From Gulosibacter chungangensis (lineage in GTDB: Bacteria > Actinomycetota > Actinomycetes > Actinomycetales > Microbacteriaceae), in the NCBI RefSeq assembly GCF_008831155.1, contig NZ_WBKB01000010.1:1-64000 (forward strand): DNA of 64,000 nt. The letters are read 5' to 3'. The notes beneath the pieces are model-generated. The model was not told the origin of the DNA. It worked only from the letters and a program-made list of their open reading frames with translations, and searched no databases. The position numbers were made by a program, and so were the translations under genes. Below are positions 47,021 through 60,858 of the stretch, one piece after another (within the stretch, counting starts at the first letter, position 1; the number at the start of each line of letters is the position of its first letter).

Positions 47021-47041
47021 ATGACACAGATAGAACCATGA
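47021..47041 (+). CDS. Six-codon leader ORF overlapping the AraC start
   Basis: ATG at 47021 encodes MTQIEP and its TGA overlaps the ATG of the AraC gene (ATGA). The only good ribosome-binding site in the region, AAAAGGGACC, is placed for this ORF and not for the regulator. Translation of the regulator is probably by coupling from this minigene. Coding is supported only by this arrangement. Confidence 0.45.
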   Translation: MTQIEP

Positions 47042-48030
47042 CGTCTCATCAAGATCCTTCGACAGTCGACTCGGCGCCGCTTGCGGAATATCCGGCCCGA
47101 GACATTCCCGTGCTTACGATTTCAGAATTCCAAGTCGCGGTGTCGAACTCGTTCGTCCCCCTGAAAGTCTCGACCCACCTCCCCGAAACCGAGTTCAAGG
47201 CGCAGCTGCAGCAGGCCAATGTGCACGGGGTTTCCTTTACCGATGTGCGCGCCAAGGCCCACGTGGTTGAGCGCACTACAGAGCTGATCGAGCAGTCACC
47301 GCGGGACTTCTACAAGATCAGCCTGCAGCTGGAGGGTACGGGGCTGCTGCGCCAGGGTGGCCGCGAGGTGCAACTCACTCCCGGTGACATCGCGGTGTAC
47401 GACACCTCGCAGCCCTATGTACTCACGTTTGACAAGCGTTTCCGCACCCTGGTCATCCAGTTGCCGCACGATCGCCTGCATATTCCGCACGAGTTTGCCG
47501 CGCAGATGACGGCGGTTCGCCTCGACGGTTCCGAGGGACTGGGGCGGGTAGTTTCGCCTTTCCTCGCGACCATCGGCACCAACCTCACGGAACTGCAGGG
47601 GCCGGCGGGTGCGAAGCTCGCGCAGAACGCGGTAGATCTCCTCGAAACGCTCTTCGCCACCGAATTTGACCTGCGGCGCTACGCGGCCGACCCGCGACGG
47701 GCACTGCTGCAACGCATCCGCGACAATATCGACGAGCACCTGTCCGACCCGGATCTCTCCCCCAATACGATTGCCGCGGCCGCATTCATCTCGGTGCGGC
47801 ACCTTCATAATCTCTTCCAAGATCAGGGACAGACGGTTGCCTCTTATGTGCGCACTCGTCGCCTCGAGCGCTGCTACCTCGACCTCACGAATCCGGAGAA
47901 TTTCGACGTCCCGGTGGCCGCAATTGGCGCTCGCTGGGGGTTTAAGGATGCGGCCCACTTCAGTCGCGCGTTCAAGGGCGCTTACGGCGAGAGCCCGAGC
48001 TCGGTGCGCCGTCAGGCCGGCGGCCACTAG
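47038..48030 (+). CDS. AraC-family transcriptional regulator
   Basis: 330 residues. Residues about 35-210 are the AraC-binding-like effector domain (FQVAVSNSFVPLKVS, VQLTPGDIAVYDTSQPYVLT). Residues about 225-325 hold two helix-turn-helices (SPNTIAAAAFISVRHLHNLF, then RWGFKDAAHFSRAFKGAYGE). This subtype, represented by FeaR and similar regulators, often controls aromatic-amine or amine catabolism. Its divergent partner is the permease/GMC operon and its own promoter carries the TCTAC palindrome, so it is the first candidate to bind it. Confidence 0.88.
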   Translation: MTSHQDPSTVDSAPLAEYPARDIPVLTISEFQVAVSNSFVPLKVSTHLPETEFKAQLQQANVHGVSFTDVRAKAHVVERTTELIEQSPRDFYKISLQLEGTGLLRQGGREVQLTPGDIAVYDTSQPYVLTFDKRFRTLVIQLPHDRLHIPHEFAAQMTAVRLDGSEGLGRVVSPFLATIGTNLTELQGPAGAKLAQNAVDLLETLFATEFDLRRYAADPRRALLQRIRDNIDEHLSDPDLSPNTIAAAAFISVRHLHNLFQDQGQTVASYVRTRRLERCYLDLTNPENFDVPVAAIGARWGFKDAAHFSRAFKGAYGESPSSVRRQAGGH

Positions 48031-48102
48031 CTCAAACCATCACGGCGCTGCGTGCTGCGTGCTTTCACGCACATGCACCCGAACATTGCCTTCGCACTTG
48101 AC

Positions 48103-48117
48103 TTTGCGTACCGCAAA
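48103..48117. promoter_or_regulatory. Perfect palindrome TTTGCG-TAC-CGCAAA
   Basis: Six-base arms with a three-base centre lie 70 bases after the AraC stop and upstream of the TCTAC palindrome. It overlaps a TTGACT that could be a -35. A separate operator is possible. Confidence 0.35.
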
Positions 48118-48168
48118 TTAGCCCCGTGGTGCACGGAACCGTAATCCCCTGTACATTCATCAGGAGCT

Positions 48169-48188
48169 ATTTCTACACTCGTAGAAAT
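48169..48188. promoter_or_regulatory. Palindromic operator upstream of the OCD-like gene
   Basis: ATTTCTAC-ACTC-GTAGAAAT is a perfect palindrome with eight-base arms and a four-base centre, 64 bases before the TTG start of the next gene. It shares TCTAC-A-N2-C-GTAGA with the site at 46975-46988. Confidence 0.65.
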
Positions 48189-48252
48189 TACGGATTCGCT
48201 GAAGAATCACAGCGACCCGCCCGCAACGCAGCGGCACCCGAAAGGACGCACC

Positions 48253-49449
48253 TTGACTGAACAGAGCATCGCGCTAGAGCAGAACAGCACCGCGCAAGAC
48301 AGCACCGCACAAAACAGCACGGCACCGAACACTCGCATCGACTTCATTTACCTGAACGAACAGGACATGATTGCCGCCGGCGTCAAAGAAATGGCCGCTT
48401 GTGTCGACGCGATGGAAGAGACCCTGAGGCTGGTTGGCGAGGGTGACTACCGGATGGGCGGCCCCCTCGGGAACTCGCACGGCTCGATGATGACCTTCCC
48501 CGAAGAGCCGAAGTTCGAAGGCATGCCGCATGACGCCCCGCACCGCCGCTTCATGGCAATGCCCGCTTACCTCGGTGGCTCCTTCCAAACCACCGGTTGC
48601 AAGTGGTACGGCTCCAACCCAGAAAATCGTGACGCGGGTCTTCCCCGCTCCATCCTGATGTTCACGCTCAGCGACAAGGACACCGGCGCACCCCTCGCAT
48701 TCATGTCGGCGAACCTCCTCAGCGCATACCGCACCGGTGCCATTCCCGGTGTAGGCCAGCGCTATCTCGCCCGCAAGGATGCACGCACGATTGGCGTTGT
48801 GGCGCCGGGCGTGATGAACAAGACCTCACTCGAGGCGTTCATGGCTGTGAATCCCGAGCTGAACCACCTGAAGATACAGGGCCGCACCCGCTCGCGCGCC
48901 GAGGACTTCGCAGTGTGGGCGAAGGAACAGTTCCCTCAGTTGACGACCGAGGTCGTCGACACGGTTGAGGATGCGGTGCGCGGCTCCGACATCGTGACCA
49001 TCGCCCCGACGACGCCGGCAGGTTCAGAGAACTACCTCAAGATCGAACGCGACTGGGTCAAGCCCGGTGCCTTCATCAGCCTGCCCGCCGACATCATGAT
49101 CGATGAGGACCTCCTACGCGAGGCCCGTCACGTGGCCGATAATCGCGACCTGTACGAGGCATGGCACGAGGAAGTTCCCTTCCCCGGCCACGAGCACATC
49201 GGCTTGCACGGCATGTACCTGATGGACCGCATCCAGGAAGGGAAGATTGCGGCCGCGACCCTCGAAGATCTCCCCGCCATCATGGCTGGCAAGAGCCCCG
49301 GCCGCCAGCACGAGGACGAAATCTTCCTCTTCTCCGTCGGCGGCATGCCCGTGGAGGACGTGGCCTGGGGCACCGTCGTCTACCGCAATGCGATCGAACG
49401 AGGTGTGGGCACCAAGCTGAACCTTTGGGAAACCCCGGAGCTTCGCTAG
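48253..49449 (+). CDS. Ornithine cyclodeaminase/mu-crystallin-family protein (tyramine oxidase subunit B-like)
   Basis: 398 residues from TTG, with GAAAGGA seven bases upstream. The first 25 residues are a Ser/Thr/Ala/Gln/Asn-rich stretch with three copies of xSTAx. The rest is the OCD fold: substrate loop with MPAYLGGSFQTTGCKWYGSN, Rossmann-type segment TIGVVAPGVMNKTSLEAF and SADxx-like GAFISLPADIMIDEDLL. Proteins of this branch are annotated in databases as tyramine oxidase subunit B; I know of no strong biochemical proof. It is followed 50 bases on by a sarcosine-oxidase-like flavoenzyme, so the two may oxidise one amine together. A palindrome upstream ties it to the AraC regulator. Confidence 0.75.
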   Translation: MTEQSIALEQNSTAQDSTAQNSTAPNTRIDFIYLNEQDMIAAGVKEMAACVDAMEETLRLVGEGDYRMGGPLGNSHGSMMTFPEEPKFEGMPHDAPHRRFMAMPAYLGGSFQTTGCKWYGSNPENRDAGLPRSILMFTLSDKDTGAPLAFMSANLLSAYRTGAIPGVGQRYLARKDARTIGVVAPGVMNKTSLEAFMAVNPELNHLKIQGRTRSRAEDFAVWAKEQFPQLTTEVVDTVEDAVRGSDIVTIAPTTPAGSENYLKIERDWVKPGAFISLPADIMIDEDLLREARHVADNRDLYEAWHEEVPFPGHEHIGLHGMYLMDRIQEGKIAAATLEDLPAIMAGKSPGRQHEDEIFLFSVGGMPVEDVAWGTVVYRNAIERGVGTKLNLWETPELR

Positions 49450-49499
49450 GTCCGCGCTGCTACAACTCTTGAACACGTATAGGAAGTAGGAATCTCGAC

Positions 49500-50678
49500 A
49501 TGGCCAAGAAACAACTCACTATTGCGGTAATCGGACTCGGCTCGGTTGGCTCGATGGCCGCTTGGCAGCTGTCCAAGCGCGAGAACGTGCGGGTAATCGG
49601 GCTCGAACAGTACGGACGTGTGCACTCGCATGGTTCCTACGCAGGTGAGTCTCGAGTGTTCCGCACTGCCTACCACGAGGGTGGGTTGTACGTGCCGATG
49701 CTGCTTGAGTCGCGCAAGATGTGGCGCGAGCTCGAGCAGGAATCCGGGCGGGATGTGTACTACGAGGTTGGCACCCTCTCGATTGCTGAGGAGAACCACC
49801 CCGAATACCAAACCACCCTCGGCACCGTGCGGGACTACGATCTGCCGCACGAACTATTCGACGCCGATCAGCTGCGCGAACGCTTCCCCCAGCACCACAT
49901 CCATGACACCGACAGAGGCATCCTCGACCTGCAAGGTGGCGGCCTGCGTCCCGAGGTCAGCGTCATGTCTGCCCTGGAAATCGCCGAACGCAACGGTGCA
50001 GATCTCCGCTTCAATACCCCGGTGCTCGGTATCGAAGAGTACTCGGACAGCATCAAGCTCCGCACCCCGCGCGAGACCTTCACGGTTGACAAAATTGTCG
50101 TCGCAACCGGGTCCTGGTCGGCGCGCATCCATCCGGAATTGCACGACCTGCTGCGCCTGCAAATCCTCGGCCTGACCTGGTTCATGCCACGCACCGATGT
50201 GGCGCCTTTCCTGCCGGAAAACTTCCCCGCGTTCCTGCGCGATTCGGGCCCCGTGCACGTGTTCGGTGCGCCGAGCTTCGACGGCTACTCGGTCAAGGTC
50301 TGCTCCAACCCGACCTGGGATGTCGTCCGCGATGTCGACGAAGTCCCCCTCTCCTACACCCGCGACGAGCTCGCCCGAATCGGCCAGCAAATCCAGGAGC
50401 TGATCCCCGACATGAACCCGGAACCGGTTCGCCAAAGCGTGCACCACTGCGCCTACACCCCGAACCGCCTGCCGGTCGTGGACCTGAGCGAGTCGGAGCG
50501 CGTCATCACGGTCGCAGGGCTCTCCGGCCACGGCTTCAAGTTCATCCCTGCCCTCGGTAAGCACGCCGCCGCGCTCGCCGTGGACGGTGATACGGACGCA
50601 GTCCCGGCCGAGTTCGGTCTCGACTCCCACATGCAGGTGCTCCGTGAGCGCGGCCCATACCAGGGTGGCGGCCACTAG
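49500..50678 (+). CDS. FAD-dependent amine oxidase, N-methyltryptophan/sarcosine oxidase type
   Basis: 392 residues. The dinucleotide motif is IAVIGLGSVGSMAAWQLSKR; the family-specific SHGSYAGESRVFRTAY follows. The residue that binds FAD covalently in monomeric sarcosine oxidase has a fitting counterpart at C317 (SVHHCAYTPNRLPVVD), and GLSGHGFKFIPALG closes the fold. Such enzymes oxidise secondary or N-methyl amines to imines with oxygen and release peroxide. A ribosome-binding site (GGAAGTAGG) precedes the ATG. A strong terminator follows, so it ends the unit that starts with the OCD-like gene. Confidence 0.87.
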   Translation: MAKKQLTIAVIGLGSVGSMAAWQLSKRENVRVIGLEQYGRVHSHGSYAGESRVFRTAYHEGGLYVPMLLESRKMWRELEQESGRDVYYEVGTLSIAEENHPEYQTTLGTVRDYDLPHELFDADQLRERFPQHHIHDTDRGILDLQGGGLRPEVSVMSALEIAERNGADLRFNTPVLGIEEYSDSIKLRTPRETFTVDKIVVATGSWSARIHPELHDLLRLQILGLTWFMPRTDVAPFLPENFPAFLRDSGPVHVFGAPSFDGYSVKVCSNPTWDVVRDVDEVPLSYTRDELARIGQQIQELIPDMNPEPVRQSVHHCAYTPNRLPVVDLSESERVITVAGLSGHGFKFIPALGKHAAALAVDGDTDAVPAEFGLDSHMQVLRERGPYQGGGH

Positions 50679-50704
50679 ATAGTTTTCTTCTTCCGCACCA
50701 AAAT

Positions 50705-50746
50705 CGCACCCAATTGCACCGCCAAGCAATTGGGTGCGCTGGTTTT
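50705..50746 (+). terminator. Intrinsic terminator after the amine oxidase
   Basis: A perfect 13-base-pair stem CGCACCCAATTGC/GCAATTGGGTGCG (50705-50717 with 50726-50738) and an eight-base loop are followed by CTGGTTTT. It separates the OCD-like/amine oxidase unit from the second AraC gene. Confidence 0.85.
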
Positions 50747-50787
50747 CCACTAACATCGGCATCCAGCCACTCGATGAGGAGGACAGG

Positions 50788-51759
50788 TTGATTCTTTCCC
50801 ACCCGCTTACCGAATATTCCACTGCCCCGGAGATAGGTACGCCAACCGGCTGGATCAACCGAGTCAATGGCGAATTCCCCACGCTGCGCATCAGCGCCGA
50901 GCAGCCTGATTTCACCGCCAGCTACCGTGGAGCTGCGACGACCCAGTTGCAAATCAGCGACATCGCGACGAGCTCACATCTGATTGAGCGCCCTGCGAAG
51001 CGCACCGACGACGGCCTGGACCTATTCAAGATTTCCTTTCAAATCAGCGGCAATGGCACACTGCGACAGCATCAACACGACCTGCAGCTGCGCCCCGGCA
51101 CCATCACCCTCTACGACGCCGCGCGGCCCTACCAAATTCATTTCGAAAACGACATGCGGTTTATCGTCGCAATGTTCCCCAAGTCCGCGCTGCAACTTCC
51201 TCCGGGGGTGGCCGGTGAGCTCAGCGCCCACCAGTTGGATGCGGATGACGCCACCAGCCGCAGTTTCGGAGTCCTGTTACAACAGCTTGCCGATAACCTG
51301 CCGCTGCTCGCGACCCCTGCCGGTGAGCAACTCAGCAGGGTTGCTCTCGACATCGCTAATTCGCTGCTGAGTGAACGCCTCGAGGTCAGCCAAGACTGCA
51401 CCCTCAGCGAAATTCGACGACGCACGCTGGATTTCATTGACCGCCAGCTGAGCAACCCAGAACTCTCACCCAGGCTGATCTCCGACAGCCTCTTCATTTC
51501 GGTTCGTAGCCTCCACAACGCGTTCGAAGACTCGGGCACCACGGTAACCAAGTGGATCCGCGAGCGCCGCCTCACCGAATGCCGGCATGCCCTTCTCGAA
51601 CCAATCAACGCATCCGAGCCCATTCGCGATATCGCGAGCCAGTTCGGCTTTGGCGACATGAGCCTCTTCAGCCGTCGCTTCCGAGAACGCTTCGGCCTCA
51701 CACCCTCGGACTTCCGTGAGGAACACCTTCGGCACGAAGTTCGCATCCCTCTGCACTAG
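50788..51759 (+). CDS. AraC-family transcriptional regulator
   Basis: 323 residues from TTG at 50788, five bases after GAGGAGG; open codons upstream lie within the terminator region and are not used. It has the same architecture as the regulator at 47038: effector domain (about 20-200, LQLRPGTITLYDAARPYQIH) and two helix-turn-helices (SPRLISDSLFISVRSLHNAF, ASQFGFGDMSLFSRRFRERF). The two proteins are clearly related but far from identical, suggesting an old duplication with different effectors. The next gene, the esterase-monooxygenase fusion, starts 78 bases downstream on the same strand and is its probable target. Confidence 0.88.
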   Translation: MILSHPLTEYSTAPEIGTPTGWINRVNGEFPTLRISAEQPDFTASYRGAATTQLQISDIATSSHLIERPAKRTDDGLDLFKISFQISGNGTLRQHQHDLQLRPGTITLYDAARPYQIHFENDMRFIVAMFPKSALQLPPGVAGELSAHQLDADDATSRSFGVLLQQLADNLPLLATPAGEQLSRVALDIANSLLSERLEVSQDCTLSEIRRRTLDFIDRQLSNPELSPRLISDSLFISVRSLHNAFEDSGTTVTKWIRERRLTECRHALLEPINASEPIRDIASQFGFGDMSLFSRRFRERFGLTPSDFREEHLRHEVRIPLH

Positions 51760-51837
51760 CGCGCATCCGCGGCGGTCCACACTCCCGCAAGCTAGTGACC
51801 AATCAAGTGAGCCGCGCAACGATGCGCAGCAAAGGGA

Positions 51838-54345
51838 GTGAAAATGACTTCGCAAGAACTCAACCAACTGCAGGAAATCCTCAAGGCAGGTGGCCCGGAC
51901 TTTTCGGCCCCAACGGCTGAAGTCCGCCCTATGTTCGAAGGACTCACTCAGTCCTTCCCCGTCAACGAGGATTTCGAATTCACTGAGCGCAAGCTCGGCG
52001 GGGTGCCGGTGCTTTGGATGGATGGGCCAAGCAAGAACGCACCCGTGCTGTTTTATATTCACGGCGGTGCATATATCGTCGGTTCGGCCAGCGGCTACCG
52101 CAGCCTGAGCGGTAATCTCGCCGAGGCCAGCGGAGCCGCAATGTGCAGCGTCGACTACCGGCTTGCGGAAGAACACCCGTATCCAGCTGCATACGACGAT
52201 GCTTACAACGCCTATCTTGCGCTCCTTGAGAGTGGGGTTGACGCTGCGAGTGTGATCGTCGCGGGTGACTCTGCCGGTGGTGGTCTCGCAATCGCGCTGC
52301 TGCAGCGTCTGCGTGATGAAGGTAAGCCCCAGCCCGCTTGTGCGTTCACACTTTCAGCTTGGGCGGATCTCAGCCACAGCGGCTCCTCCCACGTGACCAA
52401 CCGAGAAGCCGATATTTCTCTCACAACTGCTGGCCTCGCATCCGCAGCCGAACGATACCTCGGTGAGACTGGTGCCGATCACCCCTCGGTTTCGCCGGTG
52501 TTCGGTGACTTCGAGGGCCTATGCCCGCTCTACCTCACGGTCGGTAGCGAGGAAATCGTGCTCTCGGACAGTGTTCGCATCGCCGAAGCTGCTGCGAACG
52601 CCAATGTCGACGTGACCCTGCGTGTGCTGCCGCACCTGCCCCACGACTGGCCGCTGTTCTCCTTCATGCTCAGCGAAGGTCGCGAGACCATTGCCGAGAT
52701 TGGAGAGTACACGAAGCAGCACACGCAGCAAGGTGCTCAGCACGGCACTCAACCGCTTGACGTGGTGATTGTCGGCGCGGGCTGGTCGGGCATGATGTCG
52801 CTCGTGCGGATGCGGGAGCAAGGTCGCAGCGCCATGGTCCTTGAAGCCGCGCCCGAGGTGGGAGGAACCTGGTACTGGAACCGCTACCCGGGGCTGCGCT
52901 GCGATATTGAAAGCACGCAGTACTGCTATTCCTTCGATGACAAGCTCGTGGACGAATGGAATTGGTCCGAGCGCTTCCCCACCCAGGCAGAGCTACTTGA
53001 ATACGCGAAACACGTGGCCGACCGCCATGAGCTTCGCCGCGATATTGAATTCAACACGCGCGTGGCCAGTATGACCTTCGACGAAGCGCGCGATCTCTGG
53101 ACGCTCACCGCCGAAGATGGCCGCCGCTGGAGCGCTCGCCACGTGATCATGGCGACGGGACCGCTCTCAACACCAAAGCCGCTTGATATTGCCGGCACCG
53201 AGGATTTCCAGGGGCAGCTGCTGTCCACGACCGACTGGCCACACGAACCAGTTGATTTCACCGGGAAGCGGGTCGCCGTGATCGGCACCGGTTCCTCCGG
53301 CATCCAGGTGTCCACCGAACTCGCGAAAAGTGCCGCGAAGCTGTTCGTCTGCCAACGTACTCCGAGCCTGTCACTCCCAGCCTTCAACCGCCCGCTCAGC
53401 GATGCGGACCGCAGCAAGGCTAAGCAAGATTTCGCCGAACACCGCGAGCGCGCCCGCGACTCAATCGACGGACTCGGTCTTGCCACGAGCGGCAAGTCCG
53501 CACTCGAGGTTTCGGATGAGGAACTTCGCGCGGATTATGACGCGATCTATGAGAGCGGGATTCCGTTCGCCTATCTCAGTCACTACACCGACACCCTCTT
53601 CGATATGGATGCGAATACCAAGCTGCGCGACTACCTCGGTGATCGAATCAGTCAGATTGTGAAAGACCCCGACACCGCCGCGGCGCTCGTACCTACCAGC
53701 TATCCCGCCGGTACCCGACGGCTCTGCCTCGATACGGGGTTCTACGAGATCTTCAATCAGGACAATGTCGCGCTCGTTGATCTGAAACGCAACCCCATCG
53801 ACCGTATCGTCGACAGTGGTATTCGACTCGAGGACGGCAGCGTGGTTGACGTTGATGTGATCGTGCTCGCCACCGGCTACGACGCCCTCACCGGCGCGCT
53901 CAAAGCGATCAATATCCAGGGTGTGGGTGGTCGCCAGCTCCGCGAAGAGTGGGAATCCGGCCCACAGACCTACCTCGGCCTTGCCGTACACGGGTTCCCA
54001 AACTTCTACACGATCGTTGGCCCGCAGAGCCCTTCGGTGCTCAGCAATATGTTTGTCTCGATCGAGCAGCACGTGGACTGGGTCGCAGCACTCATCGATG
54101 ACTCCGAGGCTGCGGGATTCACTCGCGTGGAAGCTTCCGCACGGGCGCAGCAAGAATGGGTCACCCATGCCCGCGACCTTGGTGAACTCTTCCTGCACTC
54201 AAAGGGTGATTCCTGGTACGTGGGCAGCAATGTCGAGGGTAAACCTCGCAGCGTGCTTCCCTACCTTGGCGGTGTCGGTCCATACCGGGCTAAGTGCGAC
54301 GAAGTGGCCGCGGCAGGCTACGAAGGGTTCGTTCGCACCCGGTAG
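51838..54345 (+). CDS. Bifunctional alpha/beta-hydrolase (HSL-type esterase) fused to Baeyer-Villiger-type flavin monooxygenase
   Basis: 835 residues in one uninterrupted frame; GGGAG precedes the ATG. Residues 1-290 are a hormone-sensitive-lipase-type hydrolase: oxyanion HGGAY (73-77), nucleophile S143 in GDSAGGG, acid D242, base H267. A short Gln/His linker (291-304) leads to a class B flavin monooxygenase: first dinucleotide fold GAGWSG (311-316), GGTWYWNRYPGLRCD (340-354) as in Baeyer-Villiger enzymes, second fold GTGSSG (481-486) for NADPH. The fingerprint FxGxxxHxxxWP reads FQGQLLSTTDWP, so the His is Ser. Inferred job: oxygenate a ketone to an ester or lactone with NADPH, then hydrolyse it in the same protein. 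Esterases next to such monooxygenases are known; fusion is rarer. No signal peptide. Confidence 0.85.
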   Translation: MKMTSQELNQLQEILKAGGPDFSAPTAEVRPMFEGLTQSFPVNEDFEFTERKLGGVPVLWMDGPSKNAPVLFYIHGGAYIVGSASGYRSLSGNLAEASGAAMCSVDYRLAEEHPYPAAYDDAYNAYLALLESGVDAASVIVAGDSAGGGLAIALLQRLRDEGKPQPACAFTLSAWADLSHSGSSHVTNREADISLTTAGLASAAERYLGETGADHPSVSPVFGDFEGLCPLYLTVGSEEIVLSDSVRIAEAAANANVDVTLRVLPHLPHDWPLFSFMLSEGRETIAEIGEYTKQHTQQGAQHGTQPLDVVIVGAGWSGMMSLVRMREQGRSAMVLEAAPEVGGTWYWNRYPGLRCDIESTQYCYSFDDKLVDEWNWSERFPTQAELLEYAKHVADRHELRRDIEFNTRVASMTFDEARDLWTLTAEDGRRWSARHVIMATGPLSTPKPLDIAGTEDFQGQLLSTTDWPHEPVDFTGKRVAVIGTGSSGIQVSTELAKSAAKLFVCQRTPSLSLPAFNRPLSDADRSKAKQDFAEHRERARDSIDGLGLATSGKSALEVSDEELRADYDAIYESGIPFAYLSHYTDTLFDMDANTKLRDYLGDRISQIVKDPDTAAALVPTSYPAGTRRLCLDTGFYEIFNQDNVALVDLKRNPIDRIVDSGIRLEDGSVVDVDVIVLATGYDALTGALKAINIQGVGGRQLREEWESGPQTYLGLAVHGFPNFYTIVGPQSPSVLSNMFVSIEQHVDWVAALIDDSEAAGFTRVEASARAQQEWVTHARDLGELFLHSKGDSWYVGSNVEGKPRSVLPYLGGVGPYRAKCDEVAAAGYEGFVRTR

Positions 54346-54510: not shown

Positions 54511-55089
54511 ATGAAACGCAAGCACCTCGCAGCGCTCGGCACCTCGCTCGCACTCATTGCGGCACTGACCGCATGCTCGAGCGGTGACGCCGAAGAGCCC
54601 ACCACCGAGAACGAAGACACCACGAGCAGCGACACCGCGGCCGAAGAAGGTGGCCTCTCGAACGAGGCTGGCGACAGCGCCGAAGAGGAAAGCCCCGCTG
54701 AGGAAGGCTCGGACGGCGCATCGGCCGGGTCAAGCGAGGTTGAGATCGTCGTGGACGGAGAAAACGTAGTCCTCGAGAACCCGCAGGTGCAGTGTGGCGA
54801 AAATAACGGCACCTTCGCGATCGCCGTCACCGCGGACAACCTCGACGCTGAGTCGGGTGACGCATTCGGTGCGCTGCTGACCACCGACGAAAACCCCACC
54901 GTCAACTCGGTTGCACTCTCGCGCAGCGAGGGCGTCAGCGTCGCCTACACCGAGGGCCTTGACGGCTCGGCAGACGTCACGGTGGACGGCAAGACGTACA
55001 CCATCTCCGGTTCCGCGCTCGGCCTCGACCTCAATGACCCGACGAGCACCGACAACGTGGACTTCTCGTTCACGGTTACCTGCCCCTAA
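54511..55089 (+). CDS. Lipoprotein, possibly LpqH (19 kDa antigen)-like
   Basis: 192 residues. Signal peptide with lipobox LTAC (C22), then a Glu/Ser/Thr-rich acidic linker (about 25-75), then a beta-rich domain with two cysteines (about 95 and the penultimate residue) that likely form a disulfide. The pattern EIVVDGENVVLENPQVQC...TVTC resembles the mycobacterial 19 kDa lipoprotein family; the match is moderate. The start follows GAAAGGA. A terminator follows. Confidence 0.7.
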   Translation: MKRKHLAALGTSLALIAALTACSSGDAEEPTTENEDTTSSDTAAEEGGLSNEAGDSAEEESPAEEGSDGASAGSSEVEIVVDGENVVLENPQVQCGENNGTFAIAVTADNLDAESGDAFGALLTTDENPTVNSVALSRSEGVSVAYTEGLDGSADVTVDGKTYTISGSALGLDLNDPTSTDNVDFSFTVTCP

Positions 55090-57339: not shown

Positions 57340-60300
57340 CTAGGGGTTATTTCGCGAGGGTGCGTCGGTGAGTAAACCCGCGGTGAGCCTCGACGGTGTG
57401 CCGAACCGATGGGCGGTAATCGAGACCGCCTGTTCGCGCAGGAACGGCAGCAGTTCGAGCCGCCCCGCCTCAGTGACGGGATTGCGCCAGATGGCGAGTT
57501 CGCAGCCGACCCCTTCCCGAGCTATCTCGCGATACTCGGTTTCGGTGCCGATGAAGCGCAGTCGACCGCGCAGTTTCGGCACGATCCGACGGAAGTGGGC
57601 GTCCGTTTCGATACGCACCGGGATGCCGAGGTCGGCAAAGAGCTTCATCACCCGATCCGGGAGCTGCTCGCCGCTGGAGATCTCAATATCTGCATTCGCC
57701 CGAAGCCCTGCTGCCGCAACTCGCAACAGTCGCGTGACGAGTTGGTCTTCAGCAAGCCGGATGACGGCTCGGTCCGGGAAATAGCGGACGACATTGCGTT
57801 CTGCCGCGAGTTCCTGCACATCCCGTGCGAGGCCGAAAACCTCCTGCCAGGCAAGTTCATCGCTGCGCGCCGCGCGCACGAGCCGTTCCCGCTTTGCCAT
57901 CTGCAGCTCTTCGGCAGCCTGCAGCAGCAGTCGAACGCGCGGCTCGAGCGGCGCGGTACCCGCTGCCGCGAGCCCGAGTCGCCAGTTCGCGAGCGAGGCG
58001 ACATAGTGTTCACCGCCCGCCTTCACGGTCGGGCCGACGGTCGATTTCTTCCACCCGCCGAAGGGCTGACGTGCCACGATCGCGCCGGTGATTCCCCGAT
58101 TGACGTAAAGGTTCCCGGCCTCAACCCCGCCGAGCCACTGGGCAATTTCCGCCCGGTCGAGGGAGTGCAAGCCGGAAGTGAGCCCGTAGTCCACCTCATT
58201 GACGATCTCGATGGCTTCCTCGAGCGTCTCCACCCGCATCACCCCGAGCACCGGGCCAAAGTACTCCACACGGTGGAATTCGCTGCCGCGTTTCACTCCC
58301 GCGCGGATCCCCGGGGACCATAGCCGCGCATCCTCCCCGAGCTGCCGCGGCCGGACCACCCAGTTCTCCCCCGGCCCAAGGGTCGTAAGTCCCCGCAGGA
58401 GTTTTTCGCCCGGCGGCGAGGTCAGCGGCCCCATCCGAGCGGATGCATTGGTCGGCAACCCGAGGCGAAGCGACATGGTGGCATCCACGAGTTGATTGCG
58501 AAGCCGCCGCGAGCGCCCCGCCTGCCCAACGAGAATGAGCAGCGAGGCCGCGGAGCACTTCTGCCCGGCGTGGCCGAACGCGGAGTTCACCACATCCGCC
58601 ACCGCAAGATCGTAGTCGGCACTCGGTGTGACGATGATGGCGTTTTTGCCGCTGGTTTCGGCGTGCAGGTCGAGGTCGGGGCGCAACTTTTTGAAGGCTT
58701 CGGCGGTGTCGTAACCCCCGGTGAGGATGACCCGCTGGATGCCTTCGTGCTGCACCAGCGCAGTGGCAAGTTCCCGATCGTCGAATTGCACGTACTGCAG
58801 GGCATCTTTGGGCACACCCGCTTCCCACAGGGCTTCGACCACCACCGCCCCGGTACGAGCGGCGCTGGCTGCAGGTTTCGCGATCACGGGTGAGCCGGCC
58901 GCGAGCGCCGCGAGCATCCCACCTGCCGGAATGGCGATGGGAAAGTTCCACGGCGGGATCACGGCGATGGGGCCGGCCGATTGCCATTCGGCGCCGTCGA
59001 CCGCGTCGAGTTCGCGGGCACGTTCGGCATAGAAGTGCGCGAAGTCGACTGCCTCACTCACCTCGGGATCGGTCTGGTCGAGGGTTTTGCCGCACTCGAA
59101 CGCGGCGATCTCCATGAGTTCGGCGCGGCGCCGGTTCAGGTTTTCTCCCGCGCGGTGCAGGGTTTCTGCGCGCTGGGCGCCGGTTTGTTCCCGCCAGGTC
59201 GAGTCGCTGGCGGTCTGGATGCGCCGGTCGAGTTCCCCGCGCGAGACCACCATGTTCGCCTGCAGGGTCGCAAGCCCCAGTGCCGAGGTACTCGCACGCT
59301 GCCGGATGCCCTCGGCCCAGGTCTGGTTGGCGAGTAGTGATGGGTCGGAATCGGGAGTGTTCGTGAATTCCGGGCTCGCGGCGCCTGCCTCTGTCCCGGT
59401 GACTGTTTCTGCGTCGGCCCCAGACCCGGTCCCAGTGCCAGTCCCGGTCCCAGTCTCAGAATGTAGCGACCGGTTCTGCATCCGATTCGGCCCGGGCACT
59501 TCGCCGGTCAGCGCATCCAGCGAGGCGATAAAGCGTTCACGCTCCCGCTCAAAGAGCGACTCTCGGGAGGCGAGATCGAATACCGCGGAGAGGAAGTTAT
59601 CGTTCGAGGAACCTTCTTCAAGCCTGCGCACGAGGTAGGCGATGGCAACATCGAACTCTTCCGGATGCACGATCGGCGTGTAGAGCCGCAGTCCCCCGGT
59701 GTGCCGACGAACGACCTCGGCCTGCGCGCCGGCCATCCCGAGCAGCATCTCCACTTCGAGCGCGTCGGTCACCCCGCGTTCCTTCGCGAGCGACCAGGCC
59801 AGCGCGATATCGAAGAGATTGTGACCGGCCACGCCGATCCGCACGTTTCGAGTGCGGTCTGGATCGAGTGCCCAGTTGAGGATCTCGAGGTAGTTCGTGT
59901 CGGTCTCGCGTTTGGTTCCGAAAGTCGCGAGTGGCCAACCGTGGATTTCCGCGGCCACGTGTTCCATAGGGAGATTTGCGCCCTTCACCACCCGAACCTT
60001 GATGGGTGCACCGCCCGAGGCTACTCGCTCGGCAGCCCATTCCTGCAGCTCGATCATCGCGGCAAAGGAGTCTGGCAGATAGGCCTGCAGCACGATGCCA
60101 GCCGATAGCTGCAGGAATTCTTCGCGGTCAAGGATGCGCTTGAATACCGCGAGGGTGAGTTCGAGGTCGCGGTATTCCTCCATATCGAGATTGATGAATT
60201 TCGGTTTCGGTGCCCGGGCTGCGATTCGATATAGCGGGATGAGTCGCTCGGCTGCCTCCGCAACTGCCGCGTCGATTCCCCAGGGCTGGTGCGGAGCCAT

Positions 60301-60858
60301 GGTCGCCGAGACCTTGAGCGAGACGTAGTCCACGTCGTTCCGTCGCAGGAGCGCCGCGGTGCCCTCGATGCGCCGGTCGGCTTCGCGGGAACCGAGCACC
60401 GCTTCACCGAGCAGGTTCAGGTTGAGATCGGCCCCGGTTTCGCGAAGCCTGCGGATCGCGGCACCGAGTTGTCGGTCGCTCGCATCAATCAACAGGTGTC
60501 CCACGAGTTGCCGCAGCGCGCGCCGCGCGATCGGCACTACGATGCGCGGCAGCGTCGGGGCGGTTTTGCCGCCCAACTGCACCGCTCGACTCAATAGCGG
60601 CGGCAAAAAGCTTGGCAGGTTGTGGCTGAGGCGACGTAAGTTCCGGGCCGCGACCTGCGCATCCTCGGGCCGAATCACACCGTCGACGAACCCGACGATG
60701 AAGGCGAGCCCGTTTGGGTCACGAAGTGCCGCCGCGAGCTGAGCGCTGGCCGGGTCGCTGGGCACGGATTTCGACTCCCGCAACCACTCGCGCACGAGCG
60801 CTACTGTCGCGGGCGCGAGCCTGCGGAGTTCTTCGGTTGCTGCTGCGGAATTGCCCAT
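57340..60858 (-). CDS. putA: Bifunctional proline dehydrogenase/L-glutamate-gamma-semialdehyde dehydrogenase
   Basis: 1172 residues. GGGGA precedes the ATG at proper spacing. Residues about 100-440 are the FAD-dependent proline dehydrogenase barrel (YVSLKVSATM, VRVVKGANLPME, EVEMLLGMAGAQ, RLYTPIVHPEEF). A Gly/Thr-rich linker (about 465-490) follows. Residues about 500-960 are the aldehyde dehydrogenase (AVIPPWNFPIAIP, HAETSGKNAI, FGHAGQKCSAASL with the catalytic Cys). The last 200 residues form a C-terminal domain. It oxidises proline to glutamate, passing the intermediate internally. Actinobacterial PutA lacks the DNA-binding N-terminus, as here. Confidence 0.93.
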   Translation of the reverse strand: MGNSAAATEELRRLAPATVALVREWLRESKSVPSDPASAQLAAALRDPNGLAFIVGFVDGVIRPEDAQVAARNLRRLSHNLPSFLPPLLSRAVQLGGKTAPTLPRIVVPIARRALRQLVGHLLIDASDRQLGAAIRRLRETGADLNLNLLGEAVLGSREADRRIEGTAALLRRNDVDYVSLKVSATMAPHQPWGIDAAVAEAAERLIPLYRIAARAPKPKFINLDMEEYRDLELTLAVFKRILDREEFLQLSAGIVLQAYLPDSFAAMIELQEWAAERVASGGAPIKVRVVKGANLPMEHVAAEIHGWPLATFGTKRETDTNYLEILNWALDPDRTRNVRIGVAGHNLFDIALAWSLAKERGVTDALEVEMLLGMAGAQAEVVRRHTGGLRLYTPIVHPEEFDVAIAYLVRRLEEGSSNDNFLSAVFDLASRESLFERERERFIASLDALTGEVPGPNRMQNRSLHSETGTGTGTGTGSGADAETVTGTEAGAASPEFTNTPDSDPSLLANQTWAEGIRQRASTSALGLATLQANMVVSRGELDRRIQTASDSTWREQTGAQRAETLHRAGENLNRRRAELMEIAAFECGKTLDQTDPEVSEAVDFAHFYAERARELDAVDGAEWQSAGPIAVIPPWNFPIAIPAGGMLAALAAGSPVIAKPAASAARTGAVVVEALWEAGVPKDALQYVQFDDRELATALVQHEGIQRVILTGGYDTAEAFKKLRPDLDLHAETSGKNAIIVTPSADYDLAVADVVNSAFGHAGQKCSAASLLILVGQAGRSRRLRNQLVDATMSLRLGLPTNASARMGPLTSPPGEKLLRGLTTLGPGENWVVRPRQLGEDARLWSPGIRAGVKRGSEFHRVEYFGPVLGVMRVETLEEAIEIVNEVDYGLTSGLHSLDRAEIAQWLGGVEAGNLYVNRGITGAIVARQPFGGWKKSTVGPTVKAGGEHYVASLANWRLGLAAAGTAPLEPRVRLLLQAAEELQMAKRERLVRAARSDELAWQEVFGLARDVQELAAERNVVRYFPDRAVIRLAEDQLVTRLLRVAAAGLRANADIEISSGEQLPDRVMKLFADLGIPVRIETDAHFRRIVPKLRGRLRFIGTETEYREIAREGVGCELAIWRNPVTEAGRLELLPFLREQAVSITAHRFGTPSRLTAGLLTDAPSRNNP
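59395..59462. repeat. Short tandem repeat coding for the PutA linker
   Basis: Imperfect CCCGGT/CCCAGT hexamers alternate and encode Gly-Thr repeats on the minus strand (GTGTGTGTGSG). The unit length is a multiple of three, so copy number changes keep the frame. Confidence 0.7.

Follow-up and report, generated by a model that had tools for sequence, protein, structure and literature searches.

A probably bifunctional fusion of a family-IV esterase and a Baeyer-Villiger monooxygenase homologue in Gulosibacter chungangensis

Introduction

Among the closest described counterparts of the protein reported here are pairs of enzymes acting in series. For AcpA/AcpB, the route from acetophenone via phenyl acetate to phenol and acetate was inferred from transcriptomics (PMC9618137), and for BpfC/BpfD a Baeyer-Villiger monooxygenase (BVMO) and a hydrolase acting one after the other were assayed (PMC12724174), as described in the available portions of the two papers. 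On the side of the hydrolases, the accessible text of PMC10385968 describes EstD04, an esterase nearest to EstD11, with Glu as the triad acid within an ExL motif. On the side of the BVMOs, all sequences are said to carry both fingerprints in the available part of PMC4498894, and the survey in PMC3762062 allows, in the portion at hand, Gln at the His position. The same portion reports a fungal BVMO with a C-terminal extra domain of approximately 360 residues, called a putative polynucleotide synthase.

No natural BVMO-esterase fusion was found in the literature titles and beginnings of abstracts that were searched; since subscription journals and supplements lay outside this search, such absence is unproven. 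A Dietzia BVMO considered as a possible fusion of this kind was discarded, as its paper does not mention a hydrolase, an esterase or a fusion. Here we analyzed a stretch of 64,000 nt from G. chungangensis (the window; contig NZ_WBKB01000010.1, family Microbacteriaceae), which contains a single gene corresponding to both enzymes.

Results and Discussion

A single frame for two enzymes

The fused gene is located on the plus strand at positions 51838..54345 of the window, where the ORF translation runs through 835 codons to the stop without interruption. The true start is probably the ATG at 51844 (codon 3), resulting in a protein of 833 amino acids. This start is favoured because a Shine-Dalgarno-like sequence, AAAGGGAG (51831..51838, plus strand, read by eye), is found 5 nt ahead of it. 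Residues are numbered here from the codon at 51838; counting from the ATG at 51844 gives numbers lower by 2 (S145 corresponds to S143 and E239 to Glu237). The residue numbers of the first-pass annotation, which was made from the sequence alone, match the count from the ATG, and its S143 and H267 are S145 and H269 in our numbering.

Three parts can be distinguished on the plus strand. An HSL/family-IV alpha/beta hydrolase domain (residues about 3-297, 51844..52728) with HGGA at 75-78, S145, E239 and H269 is followed by the junction (codons 279-304, 52672..52749), which comprises a predicted helix (279-301) and a short link, and by a domain similar to phenylacetone monooxygenase (PAMO; residues about 305-835, 52750..54342) with the fingerprint FQGQLLSTTDWP, in which Ser463 occupies the His position. 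Pfam assigned Abhydrolase_3 to residues 71-271 (E 4.6e-50, 170.7 bits at a cut-off of 25) and FMO-like to residues 309-510 (E 3.2e-18). In the phmmer search against PDB chains, residues 29-300 matched the esterase Est8 (6y9k, 216 bits) and residues 300-834 matched PAMO (1w4x, 582 bits), while none of the 60 matches listed out of 181 had a best stretch spanning both domains. Thus the initial description of one frame joining an HSL-type hydrolase to a class B flavin monooxygenase is borne out by the frame, by Pfam, by phmmer and by the motifs: HGGAY (position 75), GDSAGGG (143), GAGWSG, GGTWYWNRYPG and GTGSSG, on which that description was based, were all found, together with FQGQLLSTTDWP, PHDW (268) and LSTTDW (462).

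The structure of the whole protein was predicted with AlphaFold2 from a 72-row alignment (mean pLDDT 90.5, pTM 0.70). In the model, the final helix of the hydrolase (279-301) continues to the first strand of the BVMO domain (304-312), with block pLDDT values of 83 at residues 291-300 and 80 at 301-310. What had been called a linker is therefore predicted to be mostly helix and not a loose tether. The pTM of 0.70 leaves the relative placing of the two domains uncertain. In a Foldseek comparison against the PDB, the BVMO part superimposed on PAMO 2ylt with an rmsd of 1.7 Å and a target TM of 0.96, and BVMO chains only were found among the 50 matches listed.

The junction is very probably genuine

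A fused frame could also be the product of an assembly or sequencing error merging two separate genes, and two observations may be seen as pointing in this direction: the fused form was seen in a single genome, and in one relative (L093) the hydrolase and the BVMO share a frame with only one TAG between them. Inspection of the junction argues against such an error. Between the ATG at codon 277, which lies within the hydrolase, and the GTG codons 309/310, which lie within the first BVMO strand, no in-frame ATG, GTG or TTG exists (codons 278-308), and by eye no Shine-Dalgarno-like run is present in the 20 bases ahead of GTG 309. If a single base error had created the fusion, the BVMO gene would have been left without a start codon, which makes a sequencing error unlikely. 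Further, the third-position GC content stays at 0.78, 0.73 and 0.80 in three 45-codon blocks around the junction; a drop to 0.56-0.62 is found at codons 91-225, inside the hydrolase. The first-pass annotation had itself pointed to a stop or frameshift near codons 290-305 as a possible sign of merged genes. After this analysis we regard a merging error as highly improbable, and the fusion is very probably genuine.

The fused junction was detected in one of 11 genomes of the genus, that of the host itself. At the thresholds used, no other stop-free match over both domains was among the rows listed for the genus, family, order, phylum and class draws; in G179 and G103 from the same draws, a stop interrupts the match between the two domains. 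A local origin of the fusion is very probable.

The nearest relatives are separate gene pairs

Altogether 398 genomes of the family, including the host's own, were searched, and 51 of them gave a match with an E value of 1e-60 or better. The nearest relatives found, ten in number (L093-L102), belong to the same family and match at 51-56% per domain. In these relatives the hydrolase gene precedes the BVMO gene, and the two are separate: counted from the stop to the next ATG or GTG, the gap measures 2 to 17 bases. In L100, the fetched stretch ends within the hydrolase. In L093 an ATG is located just past the single TAG that divides the two genes.

In the 155-row tree the fused protein and the ten separate pairs form sister lineages (SH-like 100), and in the 35-row IQ-TREE phylogeny it groups with the five separate pairs included there at 99/97. 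It is sister to the separate pairs and not nested inside them. Fission of an older fusion was considered as well. The rows that branch off next outside this group carry separate pairs or lone BVMOs, so that fusion is the simpler explanation. Three further loci (L122, L123 and L126) adjoin this clade in the 155-row tree (support 91) and are placed elsewhere in the 35-row tree.

Separate pairs are also common beyond the family genomes. Among 1184 plasmid records with a match, 119 contain a single locus at which 80% or more of the query is covered, and in the 30 plasmid matches listed the match spans at least two annotated genes, with the exception of one unannotated record. All three plasmid loci that were inspected are hydrolase-BVMO pairs, and the genes of the Arthrobacter sulfonylureivorans pair are 12 bases apart. 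The first-pass statement that the two enzymes are usually encoded by separate neighbours thus applies to the nearest relatives and to many other bacteria. A second hydrolase-BVMO pair, 35% identical and with one frame broken by a single TAA, was found in a family relative (G103:C13:1744-4233).

Fusions in other bacteria

We classified 159 loci with a BVMO match, which include duplicates of the host's own and in which the hydrolase was sought with that of the fused protein. One frame in the order hydrolase-BVMO was found in 27 loci (26 besides the host's) and one frame in the order BVMO-hydrolase in 23. The genes were separate in 41 loci with the hydrolase upstream and in 16 with the hydrolase downstream, and 52 loci had no hydrolase match in the fetched stretch. 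Separate pairs are undercounted here, because the flank was often only 1.5 kb long and a single hydrolase query was used. Pfam detected a hydrolase beside the BVMO in all four fused loci tested (L010, L054, L060 and L121) and added L133, while the long N-terminal stretch of L161 gave no hydrolase in Pfam. With L133 and with L176 from the class draw, the number of BVMO-hydrolase frames rises to 25. Of the 26 other esterase-first fusions, 25 bear the label Pseudomonadota; the remaining one (L012) lies on a contig labelled Nitrospira. The L012 fusion groups with copies from Rhodobiaceae and Tepidicaulis, which would be in line with either a mis-binned contig or a transfer.

A single origin of the esterase-first fusions was tried and rejected. 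Forcing the fused protein together with six other esterase-first fusions made the 35-row IQ-TREE phylogeny worse by 56.8 log units (AU p 0.0004); this test took in six of the 26 other loci, and the group was defined once the first tree was known, against which the test's own note cautions. Four fusion changes were counted on the 155-row tree, in which L086 was entered as fused on the basis of kinship only. Together, the AU rejection and the tree placements indicate that fusion arose several times and in both orders.

Genomic setting

The gene directly upstream (50734..51759, plus strand) encodes an AraC-type regulator, which is FeaR-like, scores under the NCBIfam cut-off and ends 84 nt upstream of the ATG at 51844. 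Six of the ten relatives were examined for this regulator. A homologue is located directly upstream of the separate pair in all five that could be evaluated (L162-L165 and L167); in the sixth, L166, the contig ends at the hydrolase. Because the separate pairs show the same gene order and have a homologous regulator upstream, the fused gene most likely arose from two neighbouring genes of an operon. In L164, the one relative that was annotated in detail, the cassette is flanked upstream by tatD and genes for a KsgA-type methylase, a GHMP kinase and an ABC-F protein, and downstream by glmU and prs. Given such housekeeping flanks, the functional unit appears to consist of the regulator and the two enzymes.

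The host genome contains two further cassettes for the oxidation of ketones (L168:5768-11292 and L169:5063-8864). On contig C1, ADH, BVMO, hydrolase and a divergent aldehyde dehydrogenase are encoded by separate genes, and the same holds true for ADH, a BVMO-like protein and a hydrolase on contig C4. These cassettes bear on the question whether the two domains of the fused protein could act on different substrates and be merely co-expressed. The neighbours, which resemble tyramine oxidase subunit B and N-methyltryptophan oxidase, name no substrate and thus leave room for such an explanation. However, the two enzymes are paired repeatedly, in either gene order and in several fusions of independent origin, and the host carries two additional ADH-BVMO-hydrolase cassettes. 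We therefore consider non-sequential action unlikely and prefer action in series.

The surroundings of the fused gene have several other features. At 47038-51759, two FeaR-like AraC regulators, which are 33% identical to each other, flank two further proteins: one exceeds the threshold set for 'tyramine oxidase subunit B', and the other is an N-methyltryptophan-oxidase-like flavoenzyme. The FeaR-like regulators and the protein resembling tyramine oxidase brought up a link to phenylacetone or amphetamine. It is not proposed here, since literature titles and beginnings of abstracts contained nothing direct. Past the fused gene, the region 54511-55089 (plus strand) matches the Mycobacterium 19 kDa lipoprotein antigen family in Pfam. 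On the minus strand, a frame of 1172 amino acids (57340-60858), which we presume to be a PutA-like protein, contains a simple residue repeat of the GTGTGTG type near its middle.

The catalytic residues of the hydrolase domain

The sequence pattern of the HSL/family-IV hydrolases, HGG[G/A] and GxSxG, is present as HGGA at 75-78 and GDSAG at 143-147. An acid (Asp or Glu) and a His can be assigned by alignment to E239 and H269, with the ExL motif relaxed to E-I-V. The NCBIfam model GESAG_HSLs gave 255.8 bits, which is under its cut-off of 430.

In the alignment, Ser145 is conserved in 48 of 48 hydrolase rows and His269 in all 44 rows with a letter at this position. Position 239, a Glu in the fused protein, is Asp in 26 and Glu in 22 of the 48 rows. 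The residue originally proposed as the catalytic acid, D242 in the count from the ATG, corresponds to position 244, which is occupied by E in 26, D in 18 and N in 4 of the 48 rows. Since this position can be E, D or N, Glu239 is the better candidate for the triad acid, and the earlier choice of D242 was probably a misassignment. The triad is thus probably S145-E239-H269 (the acid being Glu237 in the count from the ATG). Inactive catalytic residues in close homologues had been mentioned as a possible argument against a functional enzyme; the three positions are kept (S145 in 48/48, D/E239 in 48/48 and H269 in 44/44 rows), although conservation by itself is no proof of activity.

The BVMO domain and the Ser in its fingerprint

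The positions corresponding to D66 and R337 of PAMO, the catalytic Asp and Arg, are kept in all 155 aligned rows. The position of PAMO K336 is Arg in 20 of the 155 rows, the fused protein included. The motif [A/G]GxWxxxx[F/Y]P[G/M]xxxD is present as GGTWYWNRYPGLRCD. In FQGQLLSTTDWP, the fingerprint FxGxxxHxxxW[P/D] deviates solely at the His, which is replaced by Ser; all other positions agree, and the W-P end is kept. The alignment with PAMO confirmed this replacement, which the first-pass annotation had already pointed out.

It had also been suggested that the Ser might indicate an altered reaction or a different handling of NADPH. According to the available text of PMC3762062, mutation of the fingerprint His lowers the activity of CHMO and renders HAPMO inactive, and on this basis the domain might lack Baeyer-Villiger chemistry altogether, acting for example as an uncoupled NADPH oxidase or a sulfoxidase, so that only the esterase would matter. 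Against this stand the conserved equivalents of D66 and R337 and the W-P end of the fingerprint. The His is absent in 79 of the 155 aligned rows, the fused protein included, with 12 different residues in its place, and the wild-type BVMOAf1, which naturally has Gln at this position, is active (PMC3762062, same portion). Since so many rows are devoid of the His and a natural Gln BVMO is active, an altered reaction is not indicated, and the loss of Baeyer-Villiger chemistry appears very unlikely. The domain is best described as a PAMO homologue that would work like a type I BVMO, while strict membership by fingerprint fails at the His position.

All 52 rows counted as fused lack the His, compared with 27 of the 103 others; the 52 comprise the loci classed as fused, L133 and L086, the latter being cut at a contig end and counted by kinship alone. 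Only 3-4 independent fusions exist, and a sign test of His loss against fusion gave a median p of 0.5, so that the link between the two remains a correlation. Loss of the His as a consequence of the fusion was considered, but the separate relatives L093-L102 are also without it. As all ten sisters lack the His, its loss probably preceded the fusion in this clade. Given the 52 of 52 rows, surveys demanding the full fingerprint would omit the fused proteins. It is tempting to speculate that fusion evolved at least three to four times, in both orders and always on His-less BVMOs, handing the ester straight to hydrolysis, and that a whole class is missed by strict-fingerprint surveys, but we consider this broader view rather doubtful.

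Proposed function and comparison with known systems

We consider it likely that the gene encodes a naturally fused, bifunctional catabolic enzyme that originated by the joining of two operon genes. The stop and start between the two adjoining genes would have been lost. Expression could be induced via the adjacent AraC-type regulator. With FAD, NADPH and O2, the C-terminal PAMO-like BVMO would convert a ketone to an ester. Cleavage of this ester to acid and alcohol would then fall to the N-terminal family-IV esterase (S145-E239-H269). The substrate may be a methyl or aryl-alkyl ketone, a guess based on the kinship to PAMO. The benefit of the fusion most likely is that both enzymes are made in equal amounts and close to each other; true channelling, as implied by the first-pass idea that no reactive intermediate is released, would go beyond this.

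If the protein is bifunctional, it would be a useful one-gene biocatalyst for the conversion of ketones to acids and alcohols. Further, the locus offers a clean natural test of fusion versus operon, as the same two parts are encoded by separate genes in near relatives.

Compared to the described systems, the BVMO domain resembles PAMO (1w4x), with approximately 50% identity over the whole domain. It shares with PAMO both Rossmann motifs, GGxWxxxxYPGxxxD and the residues at the D66 and R337 positions. Differences are the Ser instead of His173 and the Arg instead of Lys336, and the solved PAMO chain corresponds to the BVMO part alone. The hydrolase domain resembles the family-IV esterases EstD11 and Est8 over its whole length, and the HGGA, GDSAGG, Glu acid and His of EstD04, as far as given in the available text on this enzyme, have counterparts in the fused protein. 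In contrast to the fused protein, in which the final helix runs on into the BVMO and ExL is replaced by E-I-V, EstD11, Est8 and EstD04 stand alone.

The acpA/acpB and BpfC/BpfD systems combine a PAMO-like or type I BVMO with an esterase or hydrolase in series, in the same manner as proposed here. The idea of chemistry in series, already contained in the first-pass annotation, has precedents in these systems. Its extension to a single chain has no counterpart in them, since according to the portions of the papers available they are separate proteins, with substrates that were proposed (acp) or assayed (Bpf). The same domain order in one frame is found in the 26 esterase-BVMO fusions (among L010-L035, L058 and L067) from Rhodobiaceae, Henriciella, Halieaceae and other groups. 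They form a separate clade, and their hydrolase is only about 25-40% identical to that of the G. chungangensis fusion over the matched stretch. In Bradyrhizobium, Reyranella, Ilumatobacter and other bacteria, BVMO-esterase fusions (23 loci plus L133 and L176) have the same domains in one frame with the hydrolase at the C-terminus. Thus, the esterase-BVMO pair and its chemistry are well known and parallel fusions exist in other bacteria, while the single-chain form in G. chungangensis, judged by its sequence relationships, appears to have arisen on its own.
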